Assembly: GCA_002286715.1 (NCBI GenBank)
Contig: NSJX01000012.1
Coordinates: forward strand, 271,916-335,915
DNA: 64,000 nucleotides
Source: Dentipellis sp. KUC8613
Lineage: Eukaryota > Basidiomycota > Agaricomycetes > Russulales > Hericiaceae
Direction of reading: 5' to 3'
The position numbers were made by a program, and so were the translations under genes. A model generated the notes under the pieces. That model saw nothing but the letters and a program-made list of their open reading frames with translations. It did not search any database and was not told the origin of the DNA. Positions 20,340 through 45,179 of this stretch are shown piece by piece (the first letter of the stretch is position 1; each line of letters opens with the position of its first letter).

Positions 20340-22791
20340 ATGTCTATCAACATCGAACAGTTCACAGACAAGTCTCAGCAGACTTTGCAAGCAGCCATCC
20401 AGCTTGCGAAGGACTATGCAAACTCTCAAGGTACCAAGTCTCCTTTCTTCTGCTCGGAGGTTCTGTCCTGACTCTTTCCCTCCAGTTCACCCCGCACATC
20501 TCGGCTTCGTCCTCTTGAATGAGGGCGCCGCCGACGAGAACGCACCAGGCGGCGTCACACACGCCCAGACGCCCCTCTTTGCCTCTGTTATTCAAAGGGC
20601 TGGCGGTGAAGCAGTAAGTGTACCTCCTATGGCCTTTGTCGACGCGTAACTCACACAACCCTTCCAGACACTCGTCAAGCGCGCCCTGCAAAAGATCATT
20701 GTCCGCCTCCCCTCCCAATCCCCACCACCCGAAGACGTCTCGCTGCACCCCGAGACCGCCCGAACCCTCAAAGATGCGCAGGCGCTCTCCAAGACGATGC
20801 ACGACTCCTACGTCGCGCAAGACCACATCCTGCTCTCGCTGCTCAAGCAGCCGTCCATCGCGCCCGTGCTCAAGGAGGCGAACCTCACCGAGGCCGCGCT
20901 CAAGACCGCGATCGAGCAGATCCGCGGGAACAGGCGCGTCGAGAGCAGGTCCGCCGAGCAGGGCTTCGACGCGCTCACAAAGTACGCCGTCGACCTCACC
21001 GCGCTCGCGGAGGAGGGCAAGATCGACCCCGTCATTGGCCGCGACAACGAGATCCGCCGTGTCATCCGCATTCTGTGCAGAAGGTGCGTCTCCCGCGTCC
21101 AAGTTTTCTCTTTGCTTTTTTCCAGACACTTACATGTGATCTTTGTGCAGAACAAAGAACAACCCTGTCCTCATCGGCGAGCCCGGTGTCGGCAAGACGT
21201 CCATCGCCGAGGGCCTCGCGCAGCGCATCGTCAACCGCGACGTGCCCGCGTCGCTCATCGCGCGCCTCTACTCGCTCGACATGGGCGCGCTCATGGCGGG
21301 CGCGAAGTACAAGGGCGAGTACGAGGAGCGCGTCAAGGCCGTGCTGAACGAGGTCGAAAAGGCGTCCGAGGAGGGCGGGCCCGGCGTCATCCTCTTCATC
21401 GACGAGCTGCACCTCATCATGGCCGGCAAGGGCTCCGAGGGCGGCGGCATGGACGCCGCGAACCTCTTCAAGCCGCTCCTTGCGCGTGGCAAGCTGCGCT
21501 GCATCGGCGCGACGACGCTTGCGGAGTACAGGAAGTACATCGAGACGGATGCCGCGCTCGAGCGGCGGTTCGCGCAGGTGCTCGTCAACGAGCCGTCCGT
21601 CGGCGAGACGATTGGCATCCTGCGTGGCATTAGGGAGAAGTATGAGGTGCACCATGGTGTCAGGATCCTCGATGGCGCTTTGATCCAAGCTGCCACCCTC
21701 GCGCATCGATACCTCACCTCGAGGCGACTCCCGGATTCCGCTATTGATCTCGTAGATGAAGCTTGTGCAAGGTATGTCCTTCGGATCCTCCTGTTCTTGA
21801 CTTGATCTGACTTTGCCGCCTTGCAGTGTCCGTGTCACCCGTGAAACCGCCCCTGAAGCAATCGACAAACTCCAACGACGCAAGCTCGAACTCGAAGTCG
21901 AGATTCACGCACTCGAGCGCGAGAAGGACGATGCATCCAAGGAGCGCCTCCAGCTCGCGCGCAAGTCCATCTCGGAGGTCGAGGAGCAGCTGAACCCCAT
22001 GCTCGCGGCGTACGAGAACGAGAAGCACCGCGGCGACGAGATCACACAGATGCGGCGCAAGATCGACGAGCTCAAGGCCAAGGCAGACGACGCAGAGCGG
22101 CGGCACGACCTCGCGACGGCGTCGGACCTGCGCTACTACGCGCTGCCGGACCTGCAGAATCGGCTCGAGCGGCTCGTCGCGAAGAAGGCGGAGGAGGACG
22201 CGTCCGCGGGCGGGGGCACCGACACCGTCACGCCCGAGCAGATCGCGGAGATCGTCGCGCGCTGGACGTCGATCCCCGTCACGCGCCTGATGTCCACGGA
22301 GAAGGAGAAGCTGCTGCGCATGGAGCGCATCCTCGCCGAGAGCGTCGTGGGCCAGCCCGAGGCGGTCAAGGCGGTCGCGAACGCGATCCGGCTGTCGAGG
22401 AGCGGCCTGCGGAACACGGCGCGGCCCATCGCGTCCTTCCTGATGGCTGGTCCTTCTGGGACAGGTAAGACGCTCTTGACGAAGACGGTAAGCACTTGCT
22501 TTCTTTTTTTTCTCCCGCTGATCTGCGCGAAGCCTGTACTGACATGTTCTTGCGTTCTAGCTCGCCACTATCCTGTTCGACTCGCCCGACGCGATGATCC
22601 GCATCGACGGCTCGGAGTACTCTGAGAAGCACTCCATCGCGCGGCTCATCGGTGCCCCTCCCGGCTACGTCGGGCACGACCAGGGCGGGCAGCTGACCGA
22701 ATACGTGCGCCGCAAGCCGTACTGCATCGTGCTCATCGACGAGGTCGAGAAGGCCGCGCGCGAGTTCGTCACGCTCTTCCTGCAGGTCCTC

Positions 22792-26041: not shown

Positions 26042-29000
26042 CTATAGCGGCGGCTCCTCGTCGGGCTCGGTGAACGACATGGGCGACAGCGGGGGATACT
26101 CTCCCTTGGACGCGATGGCATCAAGCTCTGAGAACGGGGGCAGCGACGGCGTCGCGGGGCCGCGGTCGTGGTGATGGCCCGGCCGCAGTGTCGGCAGCGA
26201 CGGCTAAAACCAATCACACACCAGACAGGACAGGACAGGCAAAGAAAGACACACGCATCAGCGGTCAAGTCAGCCACATCACATCGATCTGTGCGAGCGC
26301 GGGAGCACTCACCACCTTGAAAATCGGGTTGATTGCCGACTTTGGCGCGTCCAGGCCGGGACTGGGCGAGAGACCGTGCACATGCCCCGCGTACGGCATC
26401 TGCGGGCTCAGCTGCGGCATTGGGATCGTCACCCGCGGCTGGGGCTGGCGCATCGCCACGTCCGGGCTCTCGCTCGTGCGCGGGTGCACCGTCTGCCAGG
26501 AATGCGAGGGCGAGAGCGAGAGCGACTTCATCGGCGGGGGCGAGCCCGTGTCCGACATCGACTGCGCGTCGACCGACGCGTGCATGTGGAAGTCGTGCAC
26601 GAGCTGCTGCTCCAGCGACAGCGAGTTCGACGAGCGCGCCGACACGGGAAAGTCGTCGAACGCGCGCAGCGAGCTTGTGGTTGACGAGACGCGGTTGAGC
26701 CCGAGCATGCTGCGCTGGTGCGAGAGCCGCGACGGGCCCGGGTCGCTGTCGACCGTGGCGAACGAGATGGCGGAGATGGGCCCCAGGCTCTGCACGTCCG
26801 ACGAGGACATCGAGTGGTCGTCGTCGTGCTCTCTCCGGCGCGCCTTGGCCATGCGCTCGTCGCCCCGCCAGTCGTACGGCGCCGCGGAGGCAGGGGACGC
26901 CTGCGGCGCGTGGCGCACGGGGCCGCCCCCGCCGCGCTGCGCCGCCGCGTTCTTGTGCTTGCTCGCCGCGTCCGCCTCGAGCAGGCTCGCCGAATGCGCC
27001 CACTTCCACTCCAACTCGGGCGCGTGCACCTGCATGAGCACATGGTTCCGCTTCTCCATGACCGCGCGCGCCTGCTCCCGGTGCGACTTCTTCGCCTGCG
27101 CGCGCCGCTGCATCTCCGCCTCGCGCTGCACCCGCTCGGCCTCTTTGCGCAGCTTCTTCGGATCCACGGGCTGTGGTGGGGGCGGTGGGGGCGGCGGCTC
27201 GGCCATGGGCTGCGACATCTCTGGCAATGATCGGCTGTCGGTGCTCGAGGACTGCGTGCGCTTGAGCGAGGGCGTCGAGCTGCTCGACGTGACGTGCATC
27301 TCGTCCACGGGCGGGAGCCCGTTCTGCGGGGGCGCGGCCTGCTTGTCGCCGTGTCCGAACATGCCGCCGAGGCCGCTCCACTTGTGCTGGCGCCGAAAGC
27401 CCAGCGAGCTGAGCTTCCCGAGCTTCGTGCCCGCGTGCGCGACGTCCGGCACGATCGCGTTCGTGGTCTCCTGCATCGGGTCGGGCTCCAGTGGCGGCCG
27501 CGAGGGGTACTCCTGCGCCATCGGTGACGTCTGAATGTCCATGGGCTGGCCGAGGATGTACTCTTCGTGGATCTCTGTATGCGACGACACCACCATGCTG
27601 TCCCACTCGCTCTGCGTTTGTGGTGACGACATGTCTGCGCTCTGATATGACGAGACGCTGGACACGGTATTCGAGTGCTGGAGCTGGGGCGGAAAGTGTT
27701 GCGGATGCATGTTGTCGGAGCCCCGCCGAACATGCGCATACGACGGGTCGCTGGCATATTCGGAGGTGGTGGACGGTCCGGGCGAATGCGAGTAGAAGGC
27801 TTGCCGATGTGAGACGGACGCGTCGGGGATATGTGAGAGATGGAGCTGGGGAGGGGCTCGTGGGGATGCATGGGAGTGTGAGGGAGGCAGTGGACGGGGG
27901 GATTGTGCGGACAATGTCGACGCAGCCGTCGAAACGCCATTGCGGTGCGCGGAAAGGAGGGGGGCGGATGTAGAGATGGAAAGATGGGGTTGTGACGGTG
28001 CGGTGCGTGCGGCGGTTTCAAGGAGGTATGGGTGCTCGAGACACTGTCGGCTGGTGAGTCTGGCAGCAGGGTCGTACTTGAGCAGGTCAGCGATGCACTC
28101 GATGAGCTTGCGGGGGACGTTCCGGTCAAAGAGCGTGGTGATGTCTCTCGGGCGAATCTGCGATGTCAATGGATGAGCATTGTAAGTAACACTGAGAGAA
28201 AAATAGCGACGGACCTTCTGAAACGTAAAGCCAACATTCTTTGCCATTTTGATCCCCTTTGGCCATTTGCCCCCGCCGATCGACTTGCCCCGCGCATCAA
28301 CGCCATACTCATCACTCGGGTCGCCGAGGACCTCCGCAATCTTGGTGATCTGGTCGAGCTCGACCTTGCCGGGAAACAACGGACGGAGGTTGACGAGCTC
28401 GGCCATGATAGTCCCAAGCGCCCACATGTCGACAGGGTTGGAGTAGTCTCTACTCTTGAGGAGCACTTCTGGCGCACGATACCAACGGGTAGACACGTAC
28501 TCGGTGTAGGGAGGCTTGCTGCGTGTTTCGCGCGCGAGACCAAAGTCGGCGAGCTTGATGATCACGACCACGTCCTTTTCCGGGGGAGCGTCTGGGGGAG
28601 CAAGCGGTGAGAGGTTGGGGTAGTCGTGGAGGCCGGTGGTGGTGACGAGGACGTTCTCGGGCTTCATGTCGCGATGAAAGTAGCCCGAGGCGTGTATGTG
28701 GTGGAGGCCCGAGACGATCTGGCGGAAGATGGCAGCGACGAGCCCGCCGGCAAGCGGACGGCCCTTGCGAGCTTTGATGAGCTGGAAGAGATGGCCCTCC
28801 ATGGGTTCGAAGACGAAATAGAGCTCTTTAGACTCGGGAAGAAGAAAGGAATCGTAGAGGGGAATAATATTAGGGTGCATGGGTATCGCACGTAGAGCCT
28901 GGGGGGTGAGCGAAACGTGAGCGCGGGGCGGGGGAGCGGAGAAGGGGGACGGACCTCGAGTTCCTTGAGTCGTCTGCACTCGTCCCAGCCGCCTTCCCAC

Positions 29001-29472
29001 TTCTTTTTCATCCTCTTGACGGCGACGAGACGCTTGTTGGCGTACTCCGGTCTGGCGCCAGCTCCAGACTGCATGGCAGAGAGTGGTGTATTGGGCGGTA
29101 GCGGCCCATGCCAATCGCAGAGCCAGACTGTGCCGAAGGAGCCGTCGCCGACGGCCTTGATGGGGGTGAAGGAGCGGGTCGAACCTGTGGGAGGGTGAGC
29201 AGTGCGGGGGAGGTGGAGGGGGGGAGAGACGGACTGCTGTGGGCATCGCCGTAGCGGATGGCAGAGTCGGAGAGGTATACGGCGGGGATGCCCTGTGCGA
29301 CGAAGGGCTCCTTTGCGGCGGGGTAGGAGCGGTGAGAGTGGGCGGGGGAGGGGGCGGGATGCGGGGGTTGTGGTTGCGGTTGCGGGTGTTGCGGGGGATG
29401 AGGGAGAGAGTGGGGGGGAGCAGGGGCGGGTGCGTAGAGAGTGGTGGAGACATGGGCTGGAGATTGGTACAT
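26042..29472 (-). CDS. Ime2/MAK-type (RCK family) protein kinase
   Basis: This is a Ser/Thr kinase of the CMGC group, RCK branch (yeast Ime2, Ustilago Crk1, animal MAK/ICK), whose fungal members act in meiosis, mating and morphogenesis. ATG 29472 opens a Pro/His-rich leader. The kinase domain runs from about 29180 to 28000: glycine loop GDGSFGTVWL, catalytic Lys in VAVKRM (with an insert of about 25 residues between them), HRDMKPENVL, LADFGLARE, and the dual-phosphorylation motif TEY in YTEYVSTRWYRAPEVLL. TEY rather than TDY, plus the RWYRAPE form, fits the RCK branch. A very long disordered tail follows (Ser/His/Gln-rich, with a helical stretch near 27000-27150). After an intron (donor GTGAGT at about 26312), the last exon ends PDEEPPL at TAG 26042-26044. 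The assignment to Crk1/Ime2 orthology is inferred. Confidence 0.88.
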
Positions 29473-29948
29473 GATACAGGGAGAACTGGCATGGCCCTTG
29501 GGAGAGGGCGGGCGGGAGGGACGCGGCGCGACTCAGCACATCGAGGACAAGAGCAAGCGAGCGGATGCAGTGTCTTCTTTTTTTCCACTTGTATTTACCA
29601 CTCCATCCCCGATCGCACTTCCCTACTTTCTCTCTTTCCTCTCTTTCTTTCGCCTGCAACTAGTCCCCGCCGGCCTACTAGCTGCCCCGACCCCCGCCCG
29701 CCCGCTCGCCCGCCCGCCCGCCGCCCCGCCCCGCCGTACCCCGTCGGGGCGCCTGACTGTGGGCCGCCCGCTGGCCGGCACAGACAGCGAGATCCACGGC
29801 GATCTGAGATCGAGTCTGGGAGCGCATGGGATGACATAATCTGGACATTGGGCGCTAGAACACCGCTAGAACTCGTGCTGGCTCATGTGCTCTCTCATCA
29901 CGGCCCACTCTATCTTCCCATCTATCATCCTTCCCAATTACATCCCTC
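29473..29948. other. Intergenic: kinase promoter and 3' end of the PRS gene
   Basis: No gene was seen. It holds a C/G-only tract of CCCG/GCCC repeats around 29690-29730 and a T/C-rich stretch at 29580-29650. Confidence 0.45.
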
Positions 29949-33324: not shown

Positions 33325-33330
33325 TACTGG
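33325..33330. repeat. Left target-site duplication TACTGG
   Basis: TACTGG stands directly outside the left terminal inverted repeat and is repeated in the same orientation at 45174-45179, directly outside the right one. This is what integration with a 6-bp staggered cut leaves. Confidence 0.85.
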
Positions 33331-33750
33331 TATGGCAAGCAAAAGTGAGCAGCATCGTTTTCCGTCACGGGCGTGACAGATCGGGATCTTTGATCTGGGA
33401 ATTGATCAGCCGACGCGCCGCGCGTCAAATCTTGTCACTCGTCACATCATCCCGCCGCGCCGCGCCGTGCCTCGTTCCTCGTCGGGCGCTGTCCTCCGCT
33501 CATCGTTTCTGGCAGCGTGGACCGCCATAGAGCAGGGCGGCAGTTGAGCAGGGTTCACGAGAGCCACAAGGCTCTCATTACGTAATGATTCCATTTTCGA
33601 GCGAGTGACAGAACAAAATTTCCATATATCTCGGGAACGAAGCAACGCACAGAGACGCGAATGGCACCGTTGAACTCGTATTTTCGAGACGATTCCGTAG
33701 GTATGTAGAACGACTTGAATCGATGCATTTTTAGATTCGGACTTCGAGGG
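33331..33750 (+). repeat. Left terminal inverted repeat, 420 bp
   Basis: Reverse-complement match to 44754-45173 over the full 420 bp, with no mismatch seen on manual comparison. Homology stops sharply at both edges. It contains a stem-loop GAGAGCC-ACAA-GGCTCTC (33559-33576), the perfect palindrome TCATTACGTAATGA (33575-33588) and TCACGGGCGTGA near its outer part, possible binding sites for the transposition proteins. Confidence 0.95.
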
Positions 33751-33761
33751 ACACGACAAAG

Positions 33762-35527
33762 CTACATTGTGCTACCTCCATTCTGCCTCTGCTCCTTCTC
33801 CCACTTCAGCAGCCATGCACGGTCTTCATTAAGATCATCATACTTTGATAACCTTCCCAAGACGGCCTCCCATCTTTCGTCATGTGTGCCCTCTAATCGG
33901 AGGCGTTCCCTTGCAGAGACGGTATGTGCAGGACGGAATCCAAGGCGCACCCAGCGGAGCAGCCCGCCTGCGCAGTACTGCGTGATGGAGTAGCGGTGCT
34001 CCCCGTCAGCGATCGGGGTGTTGCCGTGGCGCATGGCTGCTGACGAGAGAAGCAAGGTGGAGCCTGCAGGAAAACGGATGCAGAGCTTGAGGTCCCAAAG
34101 ATAGATGTCTCCGCCATCATCAGCGTTAAAGTCCCCCAAGGACGTCACAGCGCAGGGGACGTCTGGAGCGTTGCCGGAGTCGTTATGGTCAATGCATTCC
34201 GTCTTAGGACCAAGATTGAACGTAACGGATGGGTAGATGCTGCCGTGGAAGTTCTGCTTGAGCTCGGGCTGCTTCTCTGCGAGTGCCTGCATTGTTTCAT
34301 GAAGATTGGCGTAGACTTTCGGAAAGTACGAGGCCATTGCCTCTGCAGATAGTGATGAGAGCGCTGGTGCTGGAAAAAAGTGCATGCAGGCTCACGGCTT
34401 TGGAAATGTGCGATGCGCTGCACGTCCTTGTCAGCGAGGAGCATTTCGATGAGCTCCTCGTCTTCTGCAGAGTGCTTGCGCACTGCTGGAATCTGTTGGT
34501 GGAGAAATCAGCGGCGTGCTTGGGGAGGCTGATGAGGAGGGGGGGCAATGGAGGCGCAAACCTTCTGCCCAGTTCCATATGAGACGCCGACGTTCCAGGC
34601 AGCAAAATTGCCGCGGCTGTGGGACATCTTTTGCTCTGTGAACGAGCCGCGGCCGCGAGTCGCTTCGAAGAGGTCAGCCACGCGTTCCGTCGCCGTTGGC
34701 CAGCGGTGCTCGGGCTCTCGCTCGTCGTCTTCTTCGGGTTGGCCAATGAGCACGGCGATGACATGCCCCTGCCTATCAAGGATTGCGTACGGCGTTCTGC
34801 AGATGCGTGAGCGGCGTGGGCTTAGCAGAGAAATCAGATCGGCTTACACCCCGTCCCAGTTGAACCGCCTAAAGCCTTTGTTCTGAAGCTCCAGTTGGGT
34901 CCAAGGCACTGACGACATTCCGCGAAGGGCCTTCACGGTGTACCCGCCCTCTGTCACTGCGTAGTCTATGGCGGCGTTCACATCTTTGCAGACGATGGTT
35001 GGCGGCGCGCCTTTCTTGGCGAAAGAGGGCCTGTGGTGGTTCGGCACGCCGTCCCACCGTGCGGGACCCTCCCTCTCTGCTGCTCGTTTCGCCTGGCGCC
35101 GTCGTTTTTTGCCTGCCTTTGACGCCTCGGTTCGCTTGCGCTTGTTCTTCTTTGTCGAAGGGCGAGGCGGAAGCGACGGCGGTGGCGGTGGAAGCGACGA
35201 CGAAGGCAATGGTGGCGACGGTGGCGGGGATGCCGGTGCGTCCGACGGAGAGGGGTGGGCCCCTTCGAGTTCTGGGAGGCTTAGGTCCCCCTCGTCGGAG
35301 GCCGGTGGAAGCAGCGGGCTGCTGGGTGCAGTCGAAACCGGGGACAGCGTCGTGGGCGAATGGATGGCCGCGCCGTCGCCTGATTCCTGCGCAGCCTCCC
35401 GCCTGTCATTCAGTGCTTCGTTGGCAGCCATGGCCTTGAGGAGCAGGCTTGAGTATCGGAGGTTCGTTGAGAGCCGTGCGGCATTGGCAGGCACGTCGTA
35501 GTCGTTTCCGGAGCGCGTCTTTACCAT
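33762..35527 (-). CDS. TET/JBP-like 2-oxoglutarate/Fe(II) dioxygenase, transposon cargo
   Basis: Basidiomycete genomes hold many copies of this 2OG-Fe(II) oxygenase family. TET/JBP relatives oxidise 5-methylcytosine or thymine in DNA; the substrate here is unknown. ATG 35527 opens a Pro/Ser-rich disordered leader with a basic stretch KKNKRKRTEASKAGKKRRR. Next come FRRFNWDGV joined over an intron to TPYAILDRQGHVIAVLIGQP, then RGNFAAWNVGVSYGTGQ, a short exon HSAEDEELIEMLLADKDVQR, and the oxygenase core in the last exon: HNDSGN (iron ligands His and Asp of HxD), GGDIYLWDLKLCIRFPAGS, MRHGNTPI (third iron ligand His) and HRYSITQYCAGG (Arg that would hold 2-oxoglutarate). The catalytic set appears complete. 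The stop is at 33762-33764, 11 bp from the TIR, so any 3' UTR must use the TIR. Confidence 0.8.
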
Positions 35528-36300
35528 TGAAGCGGCCTCTCTGAGCGTAAGATGTGGAGTTTGGTGGGGTCTTGTTCAGAGATGGGGTGTGAGGCCCAGG
35601 TCCGGAATGCAGGTGTGGAAGAAGACGTACGCGTCGTGCGTGACAACGAGTTCAGCGGCCTCAACCGCGTTCTGCTGTGCGACGGGGAGGCGTAGGCTTC
35701 ACGAGTGGCGCAGCTAGCAGAGGCCAAAGAATTGCTGGCGGGCGCAAGCAGCGGATGGAACGGCACACAGGAGCTGCACGGGCCCGAAAAATCTAGTCAG
35801 TATTGAGCGCGCATGAGAAGGGTCGGGCGTAGGTGCATGACGGGCTCGTCGGCGGCGGAGAGGATGGTGTGGAGGTATTGAAAGAAAACGCGTCAGGGCC
35901 TGGGCAGGCCCATCAGCGATGCGAGTGGCGGCGTGAGGGTAAAATCAACAAACCGCACCAGAGCCAGGGCAGGCTCATCGGCGGCGAGGAGGGCAGAATG
36001 GGGGCTTTAAAAAACGCGTCAGGGCCTGGGCAGACCCATCAGCGACGTGGGGAGCAGTATGGAGGTGAAAGAAACGTGTCAGAGCCTGGGCAGACCCATC
36101 GGCGGTGAGGAGATCGGTGTGAAGCCGTCCAAAACGCGGCAGAGGCCCTACACAAGCCGTCGAAGGCAGCTGGGGGGAGGGCGTAGGCAAAGGGGCACTC
36201 ACAGGGTGTCGGTGGTGGGAGTTGGGAACGGCGAGACGATTTTTCGCGCTGTTGCCATCTCATATACTTACGATGCGGCGAGGTAGAGCCCTTCATTAGC
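35528..36300. repeat. Spacer with a minisatellite of about 60-65 bp units
   Basis: Between about 35885 and 36110 the motif GGGCCTGGGCAGGCCCATCA and its variants recurs with spacing of about 60-65 bp (near 35896, 35961, 36021 and 36081), and a decayed copy follows. Units also share AAAACGCGTCAG just before the motif and GGCGGNGAGGA after it. Open frames across it are a by-product of the repeat. No domain was recognised. Confidence 0.7.
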
Positions 36301-37063
36301 TTGACAGCTGCCAGACACGATCACATGACCGCGCCTAAGTCCCGTGCGTCCATACACTTGTCCGTCGCTCCCATCCTATTCTCCAACGTGCTTGCCCACC
36401 CTGCCCGCCTTGCCACTGCAGCATTGAAGAGCGCAGCATCGTCATTCGCGGACTTTTTTGCAATTTTGTCTGCGCAGGCGGTGTGGTGAGTCTTCACGCT
36501 TCCCTGGCTCTACGGTAAGGTGAGTCTTCGTGCTGCCTTGTCTCTACGTTCGCCGCAATTGAACAAGCTCGCAGGCGATCAAGGGTCAAATACGGGACAT
36601 CCCGAGCCTATGCGGTGCAGGGACAGAACCGGGGGCGAGAGAAAGGTCGCAACGGCGAGTTCTGCCGCCCGTCTAGGTGCGTGTTTCCTCGAGGCGCACT
36701 CTCGAGCTGCCGTCGCTTCTGCCCCAACTACACCCCCTATAGCAGCACGCGTGGCGCCGGCCGCTGCCCCCATTTACTTGCCTCTCCCTGATTTCGCCAT
36801 CCGCGTGCCGTCACAACGCGCACATGCAACAACCTCGGCGAGCCCGCCTGGGCCGTGCTCAGCGCCTCACGGGACTCTAAAAAAACACGATCTGGCACAT
36901 GGATGGGCCCCTGCGCGTCCTGCAGGGCTGTTTGCGCCTGCTTTGGAACGCGCTCACCGAATTGGAGCTCGGGGCGAGTCAACGCAGGTGCTGGACGATG
37001 CGCACCGCTTATTGACGCAGCGCCTTCCCCCAGCACTGCGCAAGCGCGCCCGCGTCCGTCCTG

Positions 37064-37985
37064 ATGCCAGCACGCTCGAACCTGCCGCTGTTCTGCGAGC
37101 CTCTGCTCAAGGGCGCGCCGGGCGCTGCCGTCTCCGACGTCTGGGCACGCCTCCCAAAGCTGGTCGCGCTCGACACGAAGTTCCTCGGCTCGGGCGCCCT
37201 GCGCCCACGGATGACTCCATGCCGCACATGCAAACGCTCGCCGTGCGCGCGAGCTCGGTCGACTTGCAGGTCCCGCAGCAGCCCTGCATGGCTGCGCCAG
37301 CTCATCCCGCGTCCGACGTCGCTCCTTGGGACGCTCACGCCCGGTGTGTTCTGCGCAGCTCGCGACAGCGCGCGGGCACGGCGATCAACTTCGCGGCGGT
37401 CGGGGGCGCCGGGTCTGGGGCGGAGAACGCGACAAGGCGCACTTCGAGGCGTGCGAGCTTGCGCAGGAGCTCGCCGTCGCACCGGAGACGGAAGTTTTCG
37501 AGCACAAAGTGTCGCAGGCGCGGGCTCGCAACCAACAGGCGCTCCGGGTGGCGCGCTGTCTCGTAGAACAAGCCGGTGCGCGCGGAAGCGGCGAGCACGA
37601 CCTCCAGCGACTCCAGCGCGGGTGGGGGCGAGTCGTGCAACGCGCCTGCGACTCGACGATGAGCTTGTCCGTGCGGATGCGCAGCTCGCACGTGTACGGC
37701 AGGTGCTCGAGCGCGAGCAGCACGGCCTGCGGCACTCGGCTCTTTCGGCGACGTCGAAGTCGCGCCGTATCGTGAGGGGCGCGGCGTGCGCTCGGCGTCG
37801 GAACTTGGCCATTGCGGCAGGTAGCGCACACGCGCTGCTCGTCCAGAGCGCGGGGGTCGCGTGGCGCCACCGCGCGCTAGCTGCCTGCGGCAAAGGTGCG
37901 AGAGGAGGGCCCAGCCGGAAGCCAGCGCCTCGCTGAAAACGAAGTCCACATGTCGGGTGTTCACGCTGGCATAATGGCGTGGCAC
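37064..37985 (-). pseudogene. Decayed F-box/LRR-like gene fragments
   Basis: On the minus strand three frames must be joined to follow a protein that looks like an Agaricomycete F-box protein: WRHATPALWTSS and APLTIRRDFDVAE (about 37875-37755) in one frame, PQAVLLALEHLPYTCELRIR (about 37750-37680) in a second, and PPPALESLEVVLAASARTGL through SPRLRHFVLENFRLRCDGEL (about 37640-37450) in a third. At least two frameshifts separate them, and these fragments hold no usual start. A further LRR-like piece (LPKLVALDTKFLGSGAL, MPHMQTLAVRASSVDL) reads on the plus strand at about 37064-37290, suggesting rearrangement. F-box proteins give substrates to SCF ubiquitin ligases. The family call rests on pattern only. 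Confidence 0.4.
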
Positions 37986-38458
37986 AAGCCGCTGTGGCTG
38001 ATCCTCAACGGCCGCCTGCCCCCTCGGCGACTTCGTTTTCTCTGAGCCCCGAGACCAACCCTGCCTGGTTGCTCCTCACGTCATCGCCGCACGCCTGCGT
38101 ACTATGCGCCGGAGCCCTTCGCCTGCACGCCATGCGGCCTCAAGGTTGACTTTTGAGCGCTCGGCGCTGCGGCGGCATTCAAGATGCTCACTGATGCTCG
38201 CTCTTTGTTGCACGCTCGTTTCGCTCACCCGACTGTCACCTTTTCCCACTGCTTCGCTAGATAGAATGAACGGCTTGCATTATCAAAGTAAGTAGAGAAT
38301 AAATGAGCGCGTCACTAAAGGTGATGGGTGATTAAGATGAGTGCAATGAAAGGATTAGATTTACGGCACATTGTATGGCCATGGTGAAGAAATGGGTACT
38401 CGGAACTGGCTGATGGTGATTAAACAAAGAATGGGCTGGTATGGGGTATCACTGGTGG

Positions 38459-41289
38459 CTATGCGTATGTTGGAAGCTCGAAAAATTTGCAATACATGTT
38501 GCAGACGTGATCACGCTCGAAACTGCGGTGGGTGTTCGAGATGTTGCCCTTGCAGAACAAGTCGCGGCCAAGGTGCCTAGAGGATAAGACGCGATGCCAG
38601 GTCAGAAATTGGAAAGTCCTAAGTAGTCGCTCATGCGTACGGGTCCGTGATGATCTGTGGATCAGAAAGCAGTGTGTCTCCCCCTATCCGAGCCCGGAAT
38701 AGTTAATTTGGTGATTGTCGCAATGAGATTATAGGCAAAAGCTGCATACCTTGAAAGTCAGTTATAAAGGCTTGCCCACAGGTTTTCCAATACTGGACAT
38801 GCTGGCAAAATGTGAGGAACTCGGCACGCTTGAAATTGGCTGGATCCTTGTCGTGCGTAAAGCGATGCCGAGCAGTGTTGTTATTCAAATATTTGCGCCA
38901 TGGTCCCTCTGCATTGGAATCAACAAGCTCTTCAACTAGGTAGACGTCCTTGTCTCGGGGTGAAGTATTTGTGAGTGCGAGGCCAGTGCGAACGTAACGG
39001 AATGAAGGGATGCCCCACGGGCACTGCAATGGGCTCCGATCCTGGTGGTAGGACTTTATAAAGTCATATACGAGCTGTAGAAGAGCAGCTGCCCAAACCG
39101 TAGCAAGAGCGTCCTGGGCGAGCTGCCCGACGCGCTCTTCAACAGACACATTGGATGCATTACCCGCTGAGAGTGACGTGGATCCATCGACCCTACGATC
39201 ACGCAGTTGCTTCAATGCAACACGCCCGTCAGGAGACTCTGCACGAAATGGTGGAGGGTGGATGCGCCCACGTCGCATGGATTTGAATGTCCCATACTCG
39301 AGATCCTGTGCAGTGTTGAAAAAGACTTCAGCTACCACCGGTCGAGCACCGCTCATCCAGGTGAGGAAACCGTTGGTCGCAACCTGGGGTCCCGTGACAA
39401 GGTCGTCATAGGATTTGACGGGACAATCATAGAAAATGATGGACACCGTCGTTACATTCACTGTTTTTGAAGTGCATGAGAGCCATGAAAAGAATACGAG
39501 AAATTGAAATGGTCTCAACAGAATTGTCTTATGTCCCTTGCATTCGGTTCACGTTGAGCGCTGAGTGCTTGCTGAATGCGTTCAACAGGCACGCTCGGAA
39601 GCATGCTCTTTGTCTGAGGTGGAGTTCTGGCGCCATTGAATTTGGATCCATGGCTGAAATCGTTTGCGCCGGAAGGAGAGAGGCGTGAATGTTGGGTGCG
39701 CACAACGGCTGCCGTTGGCTTGGAGTCTCCTCTGCTGAAAAGATCACGACGCAGCGCAGAGTCTGCTTGGGGATCAGCGGCAGCCTGTCATCAAGACACC
39801 ATTGTTGAATTTGCTGAAGGCATATGAAGGCCGATCCACAGACCTCTACAAAATCATCTGCATTGCCGTGCTCCCTGGTTTCCGACAGGCGTGGCCTCGG
39901 ACGACGCGTGCTTTGAGTGCGTGTGAGAGATGGGGCTGTGAGCAGCTCAGCTGTAAGCGATGGGACTGCAAGTGACGTGGCCGTAAGTGACGGGACCGGC
40001 TCTGATGTCTTTCGAGGAGATGCATCAGTCAGTACCATTTAGAAGGAAGTCGAAGCGAACACACCTGAAAGCCATGCTCTTCTTCCTGGCTATTGGGATC
40101 TGAGTGCATCTCTCGATAGAATTCAGCGTCCTTTACCAGTGACGCATCCACAACGGCCTCAACAATAACGTGCTGAGAGTCTTTACCCTTCTTTGGTTTC
40201 CCACCTGGTAAACACAGCTCCTGTATCGGATGCCCATCGTCATCCAGATTGCAGTGTTTTGAGTCCAGGAGTGCCCGGATGTGATGAAGCTCCAGGGAAT
40301 GGCCGTGGTACTCTTCGAGCCATTGGCCTCTGAAACCGTGCAAGATCAGATTCATCAAGTTGACTTTACTGATCGTCGAGGGAACGTGCTCGACATTCTC
40401 GGACTAGCACGTCCGCATCATTGAGTACCTCTGAAGGCGCGTAGACGTGATCCAAAGCTCACCATAAGTAGTGATGGAGCAGCCCGCTTCTTTGCACGCA
40501 CCACCAGCCGCATCTTCAAAACGACTGAGTGCTCTGCGTTGCTGCCCATCTGAGCTCGCTTTCGAAGTATCTCTCGAGTCTCCTTGTAATCATCTTGCGC
40601 CTGCGGATGGCAGAGTGCCGTGGGAACAGAGACGGCGAGAGGGGGCATGATGAAAGGTTGGCCCTGGCCCGCGGGTCCTGGTGCACGACCTCGCGGAAGT
40701 TGCTGTTGAGAGGAACCACTGGACTTGCGGCCAGAAGGTGATGGCAGTGGCAGTGGCAGCACGGTGTGAATATTCTGAGACCTGGAAGAGCTTGGCACGG
40801 GCTGTACGTTGGACTGATTTCCTGTGGTGTTTGACAAGTCATTCGCACATACATAAGCATCTGCAGTAATGGCAACATACCTCTCTGTGCAGCGGAGACA
40901 TGCCTGCGGATCTCGTGATGATTCACCGTCGAATGTTGGCGGTTTGCCTCTAGCACAAATGAAAAGTGATCAGCCCGAATGAAAAATCAGATGGGGGCCT
41001 GTTAATTTAGGACGCTACCTTGATGTTGAGAACTTGACTCCGAAGGCGACAGTACGGAGCCAGTCTTCTTCCGGTAATAAATCCAACATTTGGAACAGAC
41101 CATGATGCACTTCTGCGTGCCTTTGACCCTTAACGTAACAGACTTCCTTCGCTTACGAAGAAGTTCGGTGGTGCAGCTGGGACGCTGGCATTTTACCAAG
41201 TCAACACCCATCGAGCCACTTGATTGCACAGAGGGGAAAGCTTGCGTAGTCCCATCTGCATAGAGCTCCATTGAGGCAGAGTGCGACAT
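38459..41289 (-). CDS. Alpha-type protein kinase with N-terminal cysteine motif, transposon cargo
   Basis: Alpha-kinases are atypical protein kinases (eEF2K, myosin heavy chain kinase), expanded in Agaricomycetes. ATG 41289 starts a protein with a possible zinc site (CQRPSCTTELL ... CIMVCSKCWIYYRKKTG), then a Pro/Ser/Gln-rich linker. Several introns join well (for example LLM to VLNDADVLVRECRARSLDDQ to GQWLEEYHGHS). The kinase domain begins near 39310: GTFKSMRRGRI, VALKQ (ATP-binding Lys), VYLVEELVD, FLTFCQHVQYWKTCGQAFIT, DFQG, then LSDPQIITDP. A last intron (donor GTACGC, acceptor TAG before 38576) leads to LGRDLFCKGNISNTHRSFER and DHVCNMYCKFFELPTYA, the His/Cys zinc site that closes the alpha-kinase fold, ending at TAG 38459. 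The joins at 39.4-40.1 kb are not resolved, so an internal break there cannot be excluded. Confidence 0.78.
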
Positions 41290-41643
41290 GGTGGTATAGG
41301 GTCCCAGCCAGCAGCCAGTGGTGCCCTCGCAGCACTACCGCCACTGCCGCAACAGCAGTGACTCGGTGGGATATGAATGAAGGGCTAGTCGTAGAATGAG
41401 AAGAGAATGGGATGGGGAAGGCGGAGGATGATTCCGAGTGATGCCAATAAGGAGGACGGAGAGAGACAAATTTTACTCAACGCACGTTGGAATCAGGCCT
41501 GTGCGAAATCCAAATTCCCCCTGACCGTTTGTCATGTGATCACAATGGTATCCTGCATGCACGCAATCGCCCCAGATCCACCGAGCACGCAGCCTTGCAT
41601 CTTCCCGACGCACATGATACATAGAAAGGGGGCCAATGAATTG

Positions 41644-43717
41644 CTAAAAGAAATCTAGTCCAACTCCATGCCCTTCGCTCGTCTCGCTGCCCTCTGCGTC
41701 CGTCCCATCAGCAATGAGCTCCTCATCGTCATCCGACCCATCGCCTACGCTACTGTTGAGATCGTCAACAAATTCTATGTGAGCGAGGTCATCCGGAAGT
41801 TGAGTATTGATGTCATCGGCAGCCTCCTGAGTCTGAAGCTCGCTGCTTTCATTCAGCATCTTCCGAAACCCTGCATCTGCTGGCATGGACCGCAACCTGG
41901 CTAGGATTTCCCGGTAGATGTCCCAGACAGTTTCAAACTGGGGCTCTGGAGAGCCCATGGAAGCCCATGCTGCCGTTGCACGTACAAGGAATTCATCTGG
42001 CACAAGTTTGAATACCGGGTCATCCGGTGGAGCATACACAGCTTCAATCTCGTTGAATATGTCACTGGGGACAGGAATCTGGCAGACCGTCAATCATTTG
42101 TACCGTCACTCGTAAGACTGTGGACGACAAACCTTGTAGTTGGCTGCATTCCATTGGTGAGGCTTCTGCATTACGAGCATAGGAATACCATTTGGTAGGA
42201 TCTTCTTTCGATCAGCACGGCGTTTTGTCCAGTTGCGTAGGTGAACCCAGTCGTCAGTTTCACGTTGAAGGTACGGTATGAAAACGAAACGAAAAGTAAG
42301 CCTACAGATACAAATCAGAACAAATATATGCTCATTCAATGGTGGCAAGATTGTCTTACATCTCAAGGGGATCCCCGACGTCATACCACCCTTTCTCCAC
42401 ACCGTCGTCAATCATTGCTTCGAAGGCAGCAATAAAGCCTCGGCGGAATAGGGACCAGAATATCTCGGGCTTGATGTTGCCGTGTTTACGAAAGAAGCGA
42501 TGCTGGATGGATCCAGCGAGGCTCGGATCCAGGCGGTGACGTAGAGCTGTTTGAGCATAAGCAACACCAAAATTCTCTGTTCCAGGGTCGCTCTGCGTAG
42601 TGAGAGGGATGCCTGATAGACATTCATCAGCTGGATCTGAGAACGGTTGCTTGATGCTCGATGCATCTCATACCTTCAACTGCCCGAGCAGCATCTAGAT
42701 AGAATTTCGTGATCAGCGTTGGATTCTTGACCGTCCACCAGACACGACACCAGTGCGTTACGCCCGGATAAGGATCAAGGCCAACGTGCCAGAATAAACC
42801 ATGACGCTTTAACTTTTCATGCTGGTCGATGCACCACATGTCAAAAGGGCCGACGGCCACAAACTTCTTGCGCTTGAACTTGCGATGGCGACGCCTGGCA
42901 ACTGCGTCGGGTTCTGTTATTCTCAAATACTCTGCAACGACAGTCCTGTGCTGCAATGAGTTGTGCTGGAGCAAAGAATGCTGCTATCACACACCGTGAG
43001 ACCCGTATCTTCTCATTCTGAAGCAGCGCCTTCCGAAGTGTTTCAGCCCCGATATCCGGGAATCGCTTTTTGATAGCCTGGACGCGCTCATGAATGCTTT
43101 GTACCGTATGGCCTTGCTTACGGGTGCTCTTGAGGCCCCATTCCTTACGACGGCGACGAACCGTGAAGACGCTGCAGCTGAGTTAAACTAGAACAACGGC
43201 ATGAGCATACCACAACGCACCTCATGCTGTAGGTTTCTTTGTCAAAATGGTCCATGACATGTGAAGCAACGTCAATGTCTGACATGCCAAGGTACCAATA
43301 AAAGTCGAAAACGGGACGCAAATCTGCATCGGGTGCTGTTGCGAGCAAAACGGCTCGTGCCTCAGAACCTCGTCAAGACAAGAACACAGTAAGTAAATCG
43401 AACTCACGGCAAGGAAGATGCTGGTTGGTTCGTCGTGTTGAGGCACCAGCTGCGACGGCCTTAGGAGGTGCCTGTGAAGCTAGAGAATAACTGAATAATG
43501 ATTTTGAATCTCCAATGTAATGATTTGTACAGACGAAGCAAAGGAGCGTGTGAGGTTTTGGGCTTTGATCTCCTTGTTCTTGATGGAGGCATAATGCCAA
43601 CGCATGGAAAATCCGAGTAAAGACGGGCAAGTTGGGCTGAAACAGCGCCGATATGAATAACGATAGGTGTAGACGACGACTGAGTGAACGATGAATCGAT
43701 ATCCAGACAGACGTCAT
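41644..43717 (-). CDS. Retroviral-like DDE integrase (basidiomycete integrase-core family)
   Basis: This is the likely transposition enzyme of the element. Exons give, in order: YWYLGMSDIDVASHVMDHFD and VRRRRKEWGLKSTRKQGHTV with ERVQAIKKRFPDIGAETLRK (helix-turn-helix-like DNA-binding part); KRKKFVAVGPFDMWCIDQHE (first catalytic Asp) and GLFWHVGLDPYPGVTHWCRV; then TQSDPGTENFGVAYAQTALR (second Asp) and GNIKPEIFWSLFRRGFIAAF (Glu). The last two are 40 residues apart, as expected for a DDE integrase. After that come FVFIPYLQRETDDWVHLRNW and EIEAVYAPPDDPVFKLVPDE, a C-terminal part shared by this family, and an acidic tail to the stop at 41644. Frames join cleanly at GT-AG sites and I saw no stop within the core. 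The start is uncertain: 43717 keeps the first exon in frame, and an ATG at 43592 in another frame would need an extra intron. It lies 354 bp upstream of the alpha-kinase. Confidence 0.82.
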
Positions 43718-44753
43718 CTCGGATGACTCCGAATCTTTGATCGACCCTCACGAACCGTTCCTCATGCGTGCAGAAGACAAGCGACATCCGCCATGTTTAC
43801 AGCACCCTGATCCCACGGAAAACCCATAATAATACGACAGCTGGTGATCTGATGGCGAATACGGCAGGCTCGTGAGTATTTGACTGTCGTTATCTGAGCA
43901 TCAGTACTTACACTCGCAAGCACCAGGTTTGAGCTGGATGAGTGCACACGGCATTTGCATATGCCGCGCACCAGAAATACGCCCCGCCCTAGTGACTGCC
44001 GCACGAAGCTGTAGTTCAGCAAGAGGGCCTTCTGCAGGCCTGTGGCAGCAGTCTAGTCGGGCTACTCGGTGCGTGGTTGCATCTTTTACTGCTCCGCCCA
44101 GTGCTAACCACGCCGCTGCACCTGCTTCCCCTCACCATGCGCTGGTAGCCCCCGCATGCATGCCCGTATTGCCTGTCGCACGTTGCGTCACCGCTCTTGC
44201 GCCCACACCAACCGAGCGCTTGTGTGGCGACGGTCGAGCCCACACAGGCGCCCAAAGCCAGTCGGCTGAGGTGCCTTGCTGTAGAGAGAGCGCGAAGTGG
44301 CGGCACTTCATCGGCACTTCGGTCGCAGTGCTTGTCGTCACCCCGTTGCCGTGCTAGCTATGCCAAAGTTCTGTCTTAAACAGCGGGGGCCATCCCCCTC
44401 CTGGCTCTCGCCATAGCGCTCGTGGTAGCCAGCTACCGCCCGACGGCCTCGCGTATTGTCTCTGTGCGCCCCACAGTTGGCTGGCCGCTGCACTGCCCGT
44501 GCCGCTGAGTTGTCTCGATGTGCAGGCTTCCACGTCGCGAAACCACTCCCCTGCGCCCCCTACATACCGAGTTAGTGGAGCTCGTCCTCCCTCGGGACTT
44601 GCTCCATTCTGTTCTCAGGCATTCACACTCTATTTTTTGACCGGTTTCCCCACAACAAATACACATTTCAGAACTGTCTTGTCAGTATAAATTTGTTCGT
44701 GCCACACGGTTTGGCGTAGCAGCCCTTATTCGTGAGGTGAGAGGCGGATTCTG
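43718..44753. other. Spacer between integrase and right TIR
   Basis: About 1 kb inside the element. It should hold the integrase promoter. Short open frames occur on both strands, without recognisable domains. It is richer in GC than the integrase gene. No further gene can be supported. Confidence 0.45.
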
Positions 44754-45173
44754 CCCTCGAAGTCCGAATCTAAAAATGCATCGATTCAAGTCGTTCTACA
44801 TACCTACGGAATCGTCTCGAAAATACGAGTTCAACGGTGCCATTCGCGTCTCTGTGCGTTGCTTCGTTCCCGAGATATATGGAAATTTTGTTCTGTCACT
44901 CGCTCGAAAATGGAATCATTACGTAATGAGAGCCTTGTGGCTCTCGTGAACCCTGCTCAACTGCCGCCCTGCTCTATGGCGGTCCACGCTGCCAGAAACG
45001 ATGAGCGGAGGACAGCGCCCGACGAGGAACGAGGCACGGCGCGGCGCGGCGGGATGATGTGACGAGTGACAAGATTTGACGCGCGGCGCGTCGGCTGATC
45101 AATTCCCAGATCAAAGATCCCGATCTGTCACGCCCGTGACGGAAAACGATGCTGCTCACTTTTGCTTGCCATA
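44754..45173 (-). repeat. Right terminal inverted repeat, 420 bp
   Basis: Inverted copy of 33331-33750, ending GCTTGCCATA at 45173. Apparent full identity over 420 bp, and the same internal palindromes. Confidence 0.95.
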
Positions 45174-45179
45174 TACTGG
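45174..45179. repeat. Right target-site duplication TACTGG
   Basis: Direct copy of 33325-33330, directly after the right TIR. Confidence 0.85.

Follow-up and report, generated by a model that had tools for sequence, protein, structure and literature searches.

What kind of element, if any, occupies positions 33331-45173 of the 64-kb stretch of DNA analysed here (the window), and do the enzyme genes enclosed there serve it? The host, Dentipellis sp. KUC8613, is a wood-decay fungus of the Russulales (Agaricomycetes), and the initial annotation had proposed a complete, probably young integrase-type DNA transposon with enzyme cargo, bounded by 420-bp identical terminal inverted repeats (TIRs) and a 6-bp target site duplication (TSD). 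We aligned the left arm (33331-33750, plus strand, starting TATGGCAAG) with the reverse complement of the right arm (44754-45173, minus strand), which carries the same sequence, and found 0 mismatches over 420 bases, so the proposed repeats do enclose 11,843 bp. Identity ended sharply at base 420, with 157 of the 200 following bases differing, and there was no outward extension of the repeat. The hexamer TACTGG was present in direct orientation immediately outside both ends (33325-33330 and 45174-45179), again as proposed, and the element termini were TATGG..CCATA. A scan of the whole window for TA..TA ends combined with an inverted repeat and a 6-bp duplication returned 10 pairs, all of which were registers of this TIR. 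The window contained no N and the flanks of the element were unique.

The 34.1-Mb assembly yielded two TIR matches, which are the element's own arms; no further copy of exactly this family was found. With 0 differences at 420 sites, the divergence between the arms has a 95% upper bound of ~0.7% (rule of three), which fits a recent movement of the element as far as its sequence indicates, although gene conversion could instead have kept the arms alike. Observed/expected CpG was 1.01 within the element and 1.16 and 1.09 in the flanks, and the element thus shows no trace of CpG-directed C-to-T hypermutation. When the empty site was rejoined, two ORFs of at least 60 aa crossed the junction, of which the longer has 151 aa and is encoded on the minus strand. 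The assembly contains a single copy of the element, which may still be mobile. Elsewhere in the window, neighbouring ORFs encode a protein kinase (26265-29594; PF00069, E 1.1e-45) and a protein with a Clp_N domain (20650-21633; E 1.1e-13).

Reading inward from the right TIR, the element encoded a transposase, an alpha-kinase, a gene-poor stretch and a TET-type dioxygenase, with all genes on the minus strand, which bears out the three co-oriented enzymes of the initial annotation (integrase, alpha-kinase and TET/JBP-like dioxygenase). The first of these (41644-43592) was modelled as an IS3EU-type DDE transposase of 8 exons and 529 aa (rva_4, E 8.6e-10) that splices into an open frame. Over 90% of its length the model was 100% identical to DENSPDRAFT_776760, a partial annotated protein of Dentipellis sp. 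KUC8613 that offers no counterpart for the first two model exons. The sole disagreement was two extra residues at one acceptor: exon 4 starts at 43171 in the annotated protein and 6 bases earlier in the model. Residues D141, D200 and E241 were invariant in 21/21 aligned transposases, a selection from the 72 proteins found, and are probably the catalytic triad. An HHCC motif was absent upstream of the core, where the upstream exons contribute one cysteine; in P0001 the first cysteine stands at residue 139, two positions ahead of D141. No solved structure matched the transposase profile at E ≤ 0.1. The likeness to prokaryotic IS481/IS3 transposases lies in the DDE core, an upstream HTH region and weak profile matches, which score far below the curated cut-offs (19.7 bits against 224, and 15.6 against 160). 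In contrast to these, the window transposase is a spliced eukaryotic gene within an element that has long TIRs and enzyme cargo.

The nearest transposase relative outside the host came from Fomitopsis (Polyporales; 69% identical) and was closer than those from Lactarius, itself a member of the Russulales. In a tree of 31 of the 72 proteins plus the transposase of a second Dentipellis element described below, the window and Fomitopsis sequences paired with support of 100/99, with the Lactarius group alongside. The distance between the two is not short. A genome-wide search with PF24764 missed the window's own split transposase gene. The surroundings of the other rva_4 matches, on contigs C133, C89 and C95 (10-30 kb each), yielded no TA..TA inverted repeat flanked by a 6-bp duplication.

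Next to the transposase lies the alpha-kinase gene (38459-41289, minus strand), whose core (exons 39461-38750, 38683-38641 and 38576-38459) matched PF02816 (E 9.2e-12) and the TRPM-type channel kinase 1ia9 (E 9e-4). It also has the DxQG and DPQI stretches, together with cysteines near the C-terminus. The N-terminal exons, which begin at 41289 and include a Cys-rich stretch, are partly resolved, and the frame of the model hits a stop at the exon join near 39.8-39.5 kb. Between kinase and dioxygenase, the gene-poor stretch (35600-38250) comprised four 60-65-bp repeats at 35885-36135 and partial matches to contigs C161 and C69 (36200-38250, 75-81% identical). The F-box-like relic previously suggested here was not recovered: none of five ORFs scanned within 36.5-38.1 kb, both strands included, matched an F-box or any other Pfam family at E ≤ 1.

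The outermost gene, farthest from the transposase, encodes a TET/JBP-type 2OG-Fe(II) dioxygenase (33762-35527, minus strand), its four exons (35527-34848, 34796-34562, 34492-34396 and 34342-33762) joining into 530 residues without a stop; 11 bases separate the stop codon from the left TIR. The iron triad (HND...H in the window enzyme) was kept in 17/17 relatives, and synonymous changes far outnumbered replacements. Pfam support was weak, being confined to the last exon (E 0.047); the spliced domain matched no Pfam TET family at E ≤ 1, and 3 of the 17 relatives had a Pfam TET match at E ≤ 0.01. Profiles of neither this family nor that of the second element's dioxygenase found any CcTET chain at E ≤ 1. 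As sequence searches gave no link to solved TETs, folds were compared instead, and structure prediction assigned the window enzyme a TET fold that matches CcTET. Given this predicted fold and the HxD...H triad, the enzyme is a candidate TET dioxygenase that would act on methylated bases. Relatives of the window TET also occurred elsewhere in the genome (C89:396226, C143:73442, C1:2538069, C105:179674, C125:120290 and C162:34644; 39-79% identity over the matched pieces), those on C125 and C162 carrying internal stops. No TIR with a 6-bp duplication was found at any of the six (10 kb each).

A second complete IS3EU element was identified from its TIRs, TSD and genes on contig C80 (C80:52883-67290; 14,408 bp). 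Its TIRs were identical at 764/764 positions, starting TATGGCAAA, and its TSD was GAGGAG. The layout was that of the window element, namely transposase, alpha-kinase and TET-fold dioxygenase on one strand, and the two alpha-kinases were 43% identical. Inner repeats were present, with a gap of 585 N beside them. The C80 dioxygenase (P0089) has a TET fold by prediction, with HAD where the window TET has HND, matched no Pfam family at E ≤ 0.1, and shared 18% identity with the window TET in a profile alignment. Judged by these models, it is a putative TET-fold enzyme of a lineage deeply diverged from that of the window. The two elements therefore have a transposase-kinase core in common and a different enzyme in the TET slot.

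The C80-type dioxygenase family comprised P0089 and 54 further proteins; the 52 of these 55 that carry an organism name all come from Agaricomycetes. Within the same genome, C80-type genes were also observed at C69:247k, C3:40k, C149:15k, C2:772k, C79:6.9k, C125:100.7k, C156:10.9k and C32:9.5k. On C89, one such gene (206829-209734) and rva_4 integrase exons (218335-218927) lie on one strand ~9 kb apart; no TIR was found around this pair within 198-228 kb, and it is perhaps a decayed relative of these elements. TA..TA inverted repeats with a 6-bp duplication were likewise not found at the TET-like places C89b, C143, C1, C105, C125, C125b, C162, C69, C3, C149, C2 and C79 (10-30 kb each). Two stretches of 478 bp whose inverted TA..TA ends match at 30/30 bases (C162:36681-37158 and C80:48648-49125, the latter close to the C80 element) possibly represent one small non-autonomous transposon family.

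Which superfamily do these elements belong to? PMC10045372 describes IS3EU as having TA..TA termini and as lacking an upstream HHCC motif ahead of the transposase core. Both Dentipellis elements begin and end accordingly (TATGGCAAG.. and TATGGCAAA..), each has a 6-bp TSD, their TIRs (420 and 764 bp) exceed 30 bp, and the window transposase is of the IS3/IS481-like DDE type, with its three invariant acidic residues and weak IS481/IS3 matches. By its ends, TSD length and transposase type, the window element fits the IS3EU superfamily. The initial annotation had stated that no described class held this gene set and that basidiomycete TET/JBP genes travel with KDZ transposases rather than with this integrase. 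Neither statement can stand, since TET+ alpha-kinase+ IS3EU elements from rusts have been described in a paper of December 2025 (Kojima, PMC12730594), the only source joining TET, IS3EU and alpha-kinase that our literature search found. The kind of element is thus already known. A KDZ affiliation was also rejected for the locus itself, as a genome search listing 28 KDZ matches placed none of them in the window; the nearest of them lies at 662 kb on C22, and the element at 305-317 kb.

As set out in the main text of PMC12730594, TET+ IS3EU elements occur in seven Pucciniales species (Puccinia and Melampsora among the rusts), with a 6-bp TSD, TAYGG..CCRTA ends, TIRs >30 bp and an alpha-kinase, and the window element shares all of these traits together with the DDE transposase and the TET/JBP gene. 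However, its host is an agaricomycete, and the layout differs. In all TET+ IS3EU families treated there, the TET gene is flanked by a transposase and an alpha-kinase gene of opposite orientations, whereas in both Dentipellis elements the order is transposase, alpha-kinase, TET, co-oriented and with TET outermost. A further family from the ascomycete Tuber indicum, IS3EU-1_TuIn, belongs to the same superfamily and also has a TET gene, but is of the PE type, in which HxE replaces the HxD that both Dentipellis TETs retain (HND and HAD; PMC12730594). Kyakuja, the only TET+ transposon given for Russulales in that main text, is likewise a DNA transposon of Agaricomycetes that carries a TET-fold enzyme, with CcTET as a relative, but has a KDZ transposase, a 7-bp TSD and no TIR (PMC12730594), in contrast to the IS3EU-type transposase, 6-bp TSD and TIRs of the window element. 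Both Dentipellis TETs match the AG-type CcTET in fold without a sequence-level match. Of the two types compared, PE and AG, they thus appear from their sequences to have neither the PE hallmark nor a close kinship with CcTET. What is new relative to the main text of PMC12730594, whose Table S1 might list agaricomycete IS3EU elements, is the agaricomycete host, the layout, the sister element and a TET-fold cargo without a Pfam family.

Three other explanations were weighed against a mobile IS3EU transposon with functional cargo. Polinton/Maverick elements are marked by genes for DNA polymerase B, the capsid and packaging, and a 420-bp TIR and an rve-type integrase would agree with such an element or one derived from a virus, as would the 6-bp TSD, which Polintons also have (PMC10045372). 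However, none of the ORFs and models scanned (sets of 10, 3 and 6, covering the short ORFs in part) matched a family of polymerase B, of capsid proteins or of packaging ATPases, the TATGG..CCATA ends agree with IS3EU, and the gene set equals that published for TET+ IS3EU in the main text of PMC12730594. We consequently rejected this reading as very improbable. We hold it just as hard to credit that the identical arms arose in assembly from a collapsed or misjoined repeat. The 585-N gap in the C80 element does indicate that the assembly is imperfect in such regions, but the window is free of N, its flanks are unique, the TSDs match, and the same design recurs in a second element whose TIRs and TSD are different.

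A less remote alternative, though still an improbable one, accepts the transposon as real but takes the TET and alpha-kinase genes to be captured passengers without a role for it, in line with the view, published in PMC12730594, that TET genes were passed passively between transposon families. The alpha-kinase is, however, common to both Dentipellis elements and to the rust IS3EU elements of that study's main text, which argues, on sequence grounds, that it is part of the core gene set. The TET frame, moreover, is open through four exons, its iron triad is conserved in every relative compared, replacements are far outnumbered by synonymous changes, and the corresponding position in the two elements is filled by distinct TET-fold enzymes.

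We therefore favour, with a probability of about 0.8, a complete, autonomous-looking cut-and-paste IS3EU transposon whose TET enzyme would counter methylation silencing. The ends, the TSD, the gene content, the conserved catalytic residues, the predicted TET fold and the second element of the same layout are shown by the analysis; counted against this reading were the single copy, the possible gene conversion of the TIRs, the weak Pfam TET match and the failure of PF24764 to recover the window's own gene. From the anatomy and the superfamily we infer cut-and-paste movement that uses the TA..TA ends and a 6-bp stagger: the DDE transposase would bind the long TIRs and cut the element out, and reinsertion at a 6-bp staggered cut would generate the TACTGG duplication. 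The alpha-kinase may regulate transposition or a host nuclear factor. By oxidising methylated bases on the element, the TET/JBP dioxygenase would let the transposon escape methylation silencing, an anti-methylation role for transposon TETs that has been hypothesised in PMC12730594.

These findings extend TET-carrying IS3EU to the Agaricomycetes, where the genes are arranged differently, and place in one wood-decay fungus two complete elements with different TET-fold enzymes beside the same type of kinase. With these elements, two questions become testable, namely the function of the alpha-kinase and whether a transposon-borne TET shields the element that carries it against methylation. If the C80-type dioxygenase family acts on DNA, it would constitute a transposon-borne TET lineage without a Pfam family. 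More tentatively, and at rather less than even odds, agaricomycete IS3EU elements may constitute a lineage in which the core of transposase and alpha-kinase is fixed and the slot for a base-modifying dioxygenase is exchangeable; as the two elements carry TET-fold enzymes of two deeply separated lineages, the slot would then have been refilled at least once. Such refilling would imply repeated selection for TET-like activity, perhaps with different base specificities.
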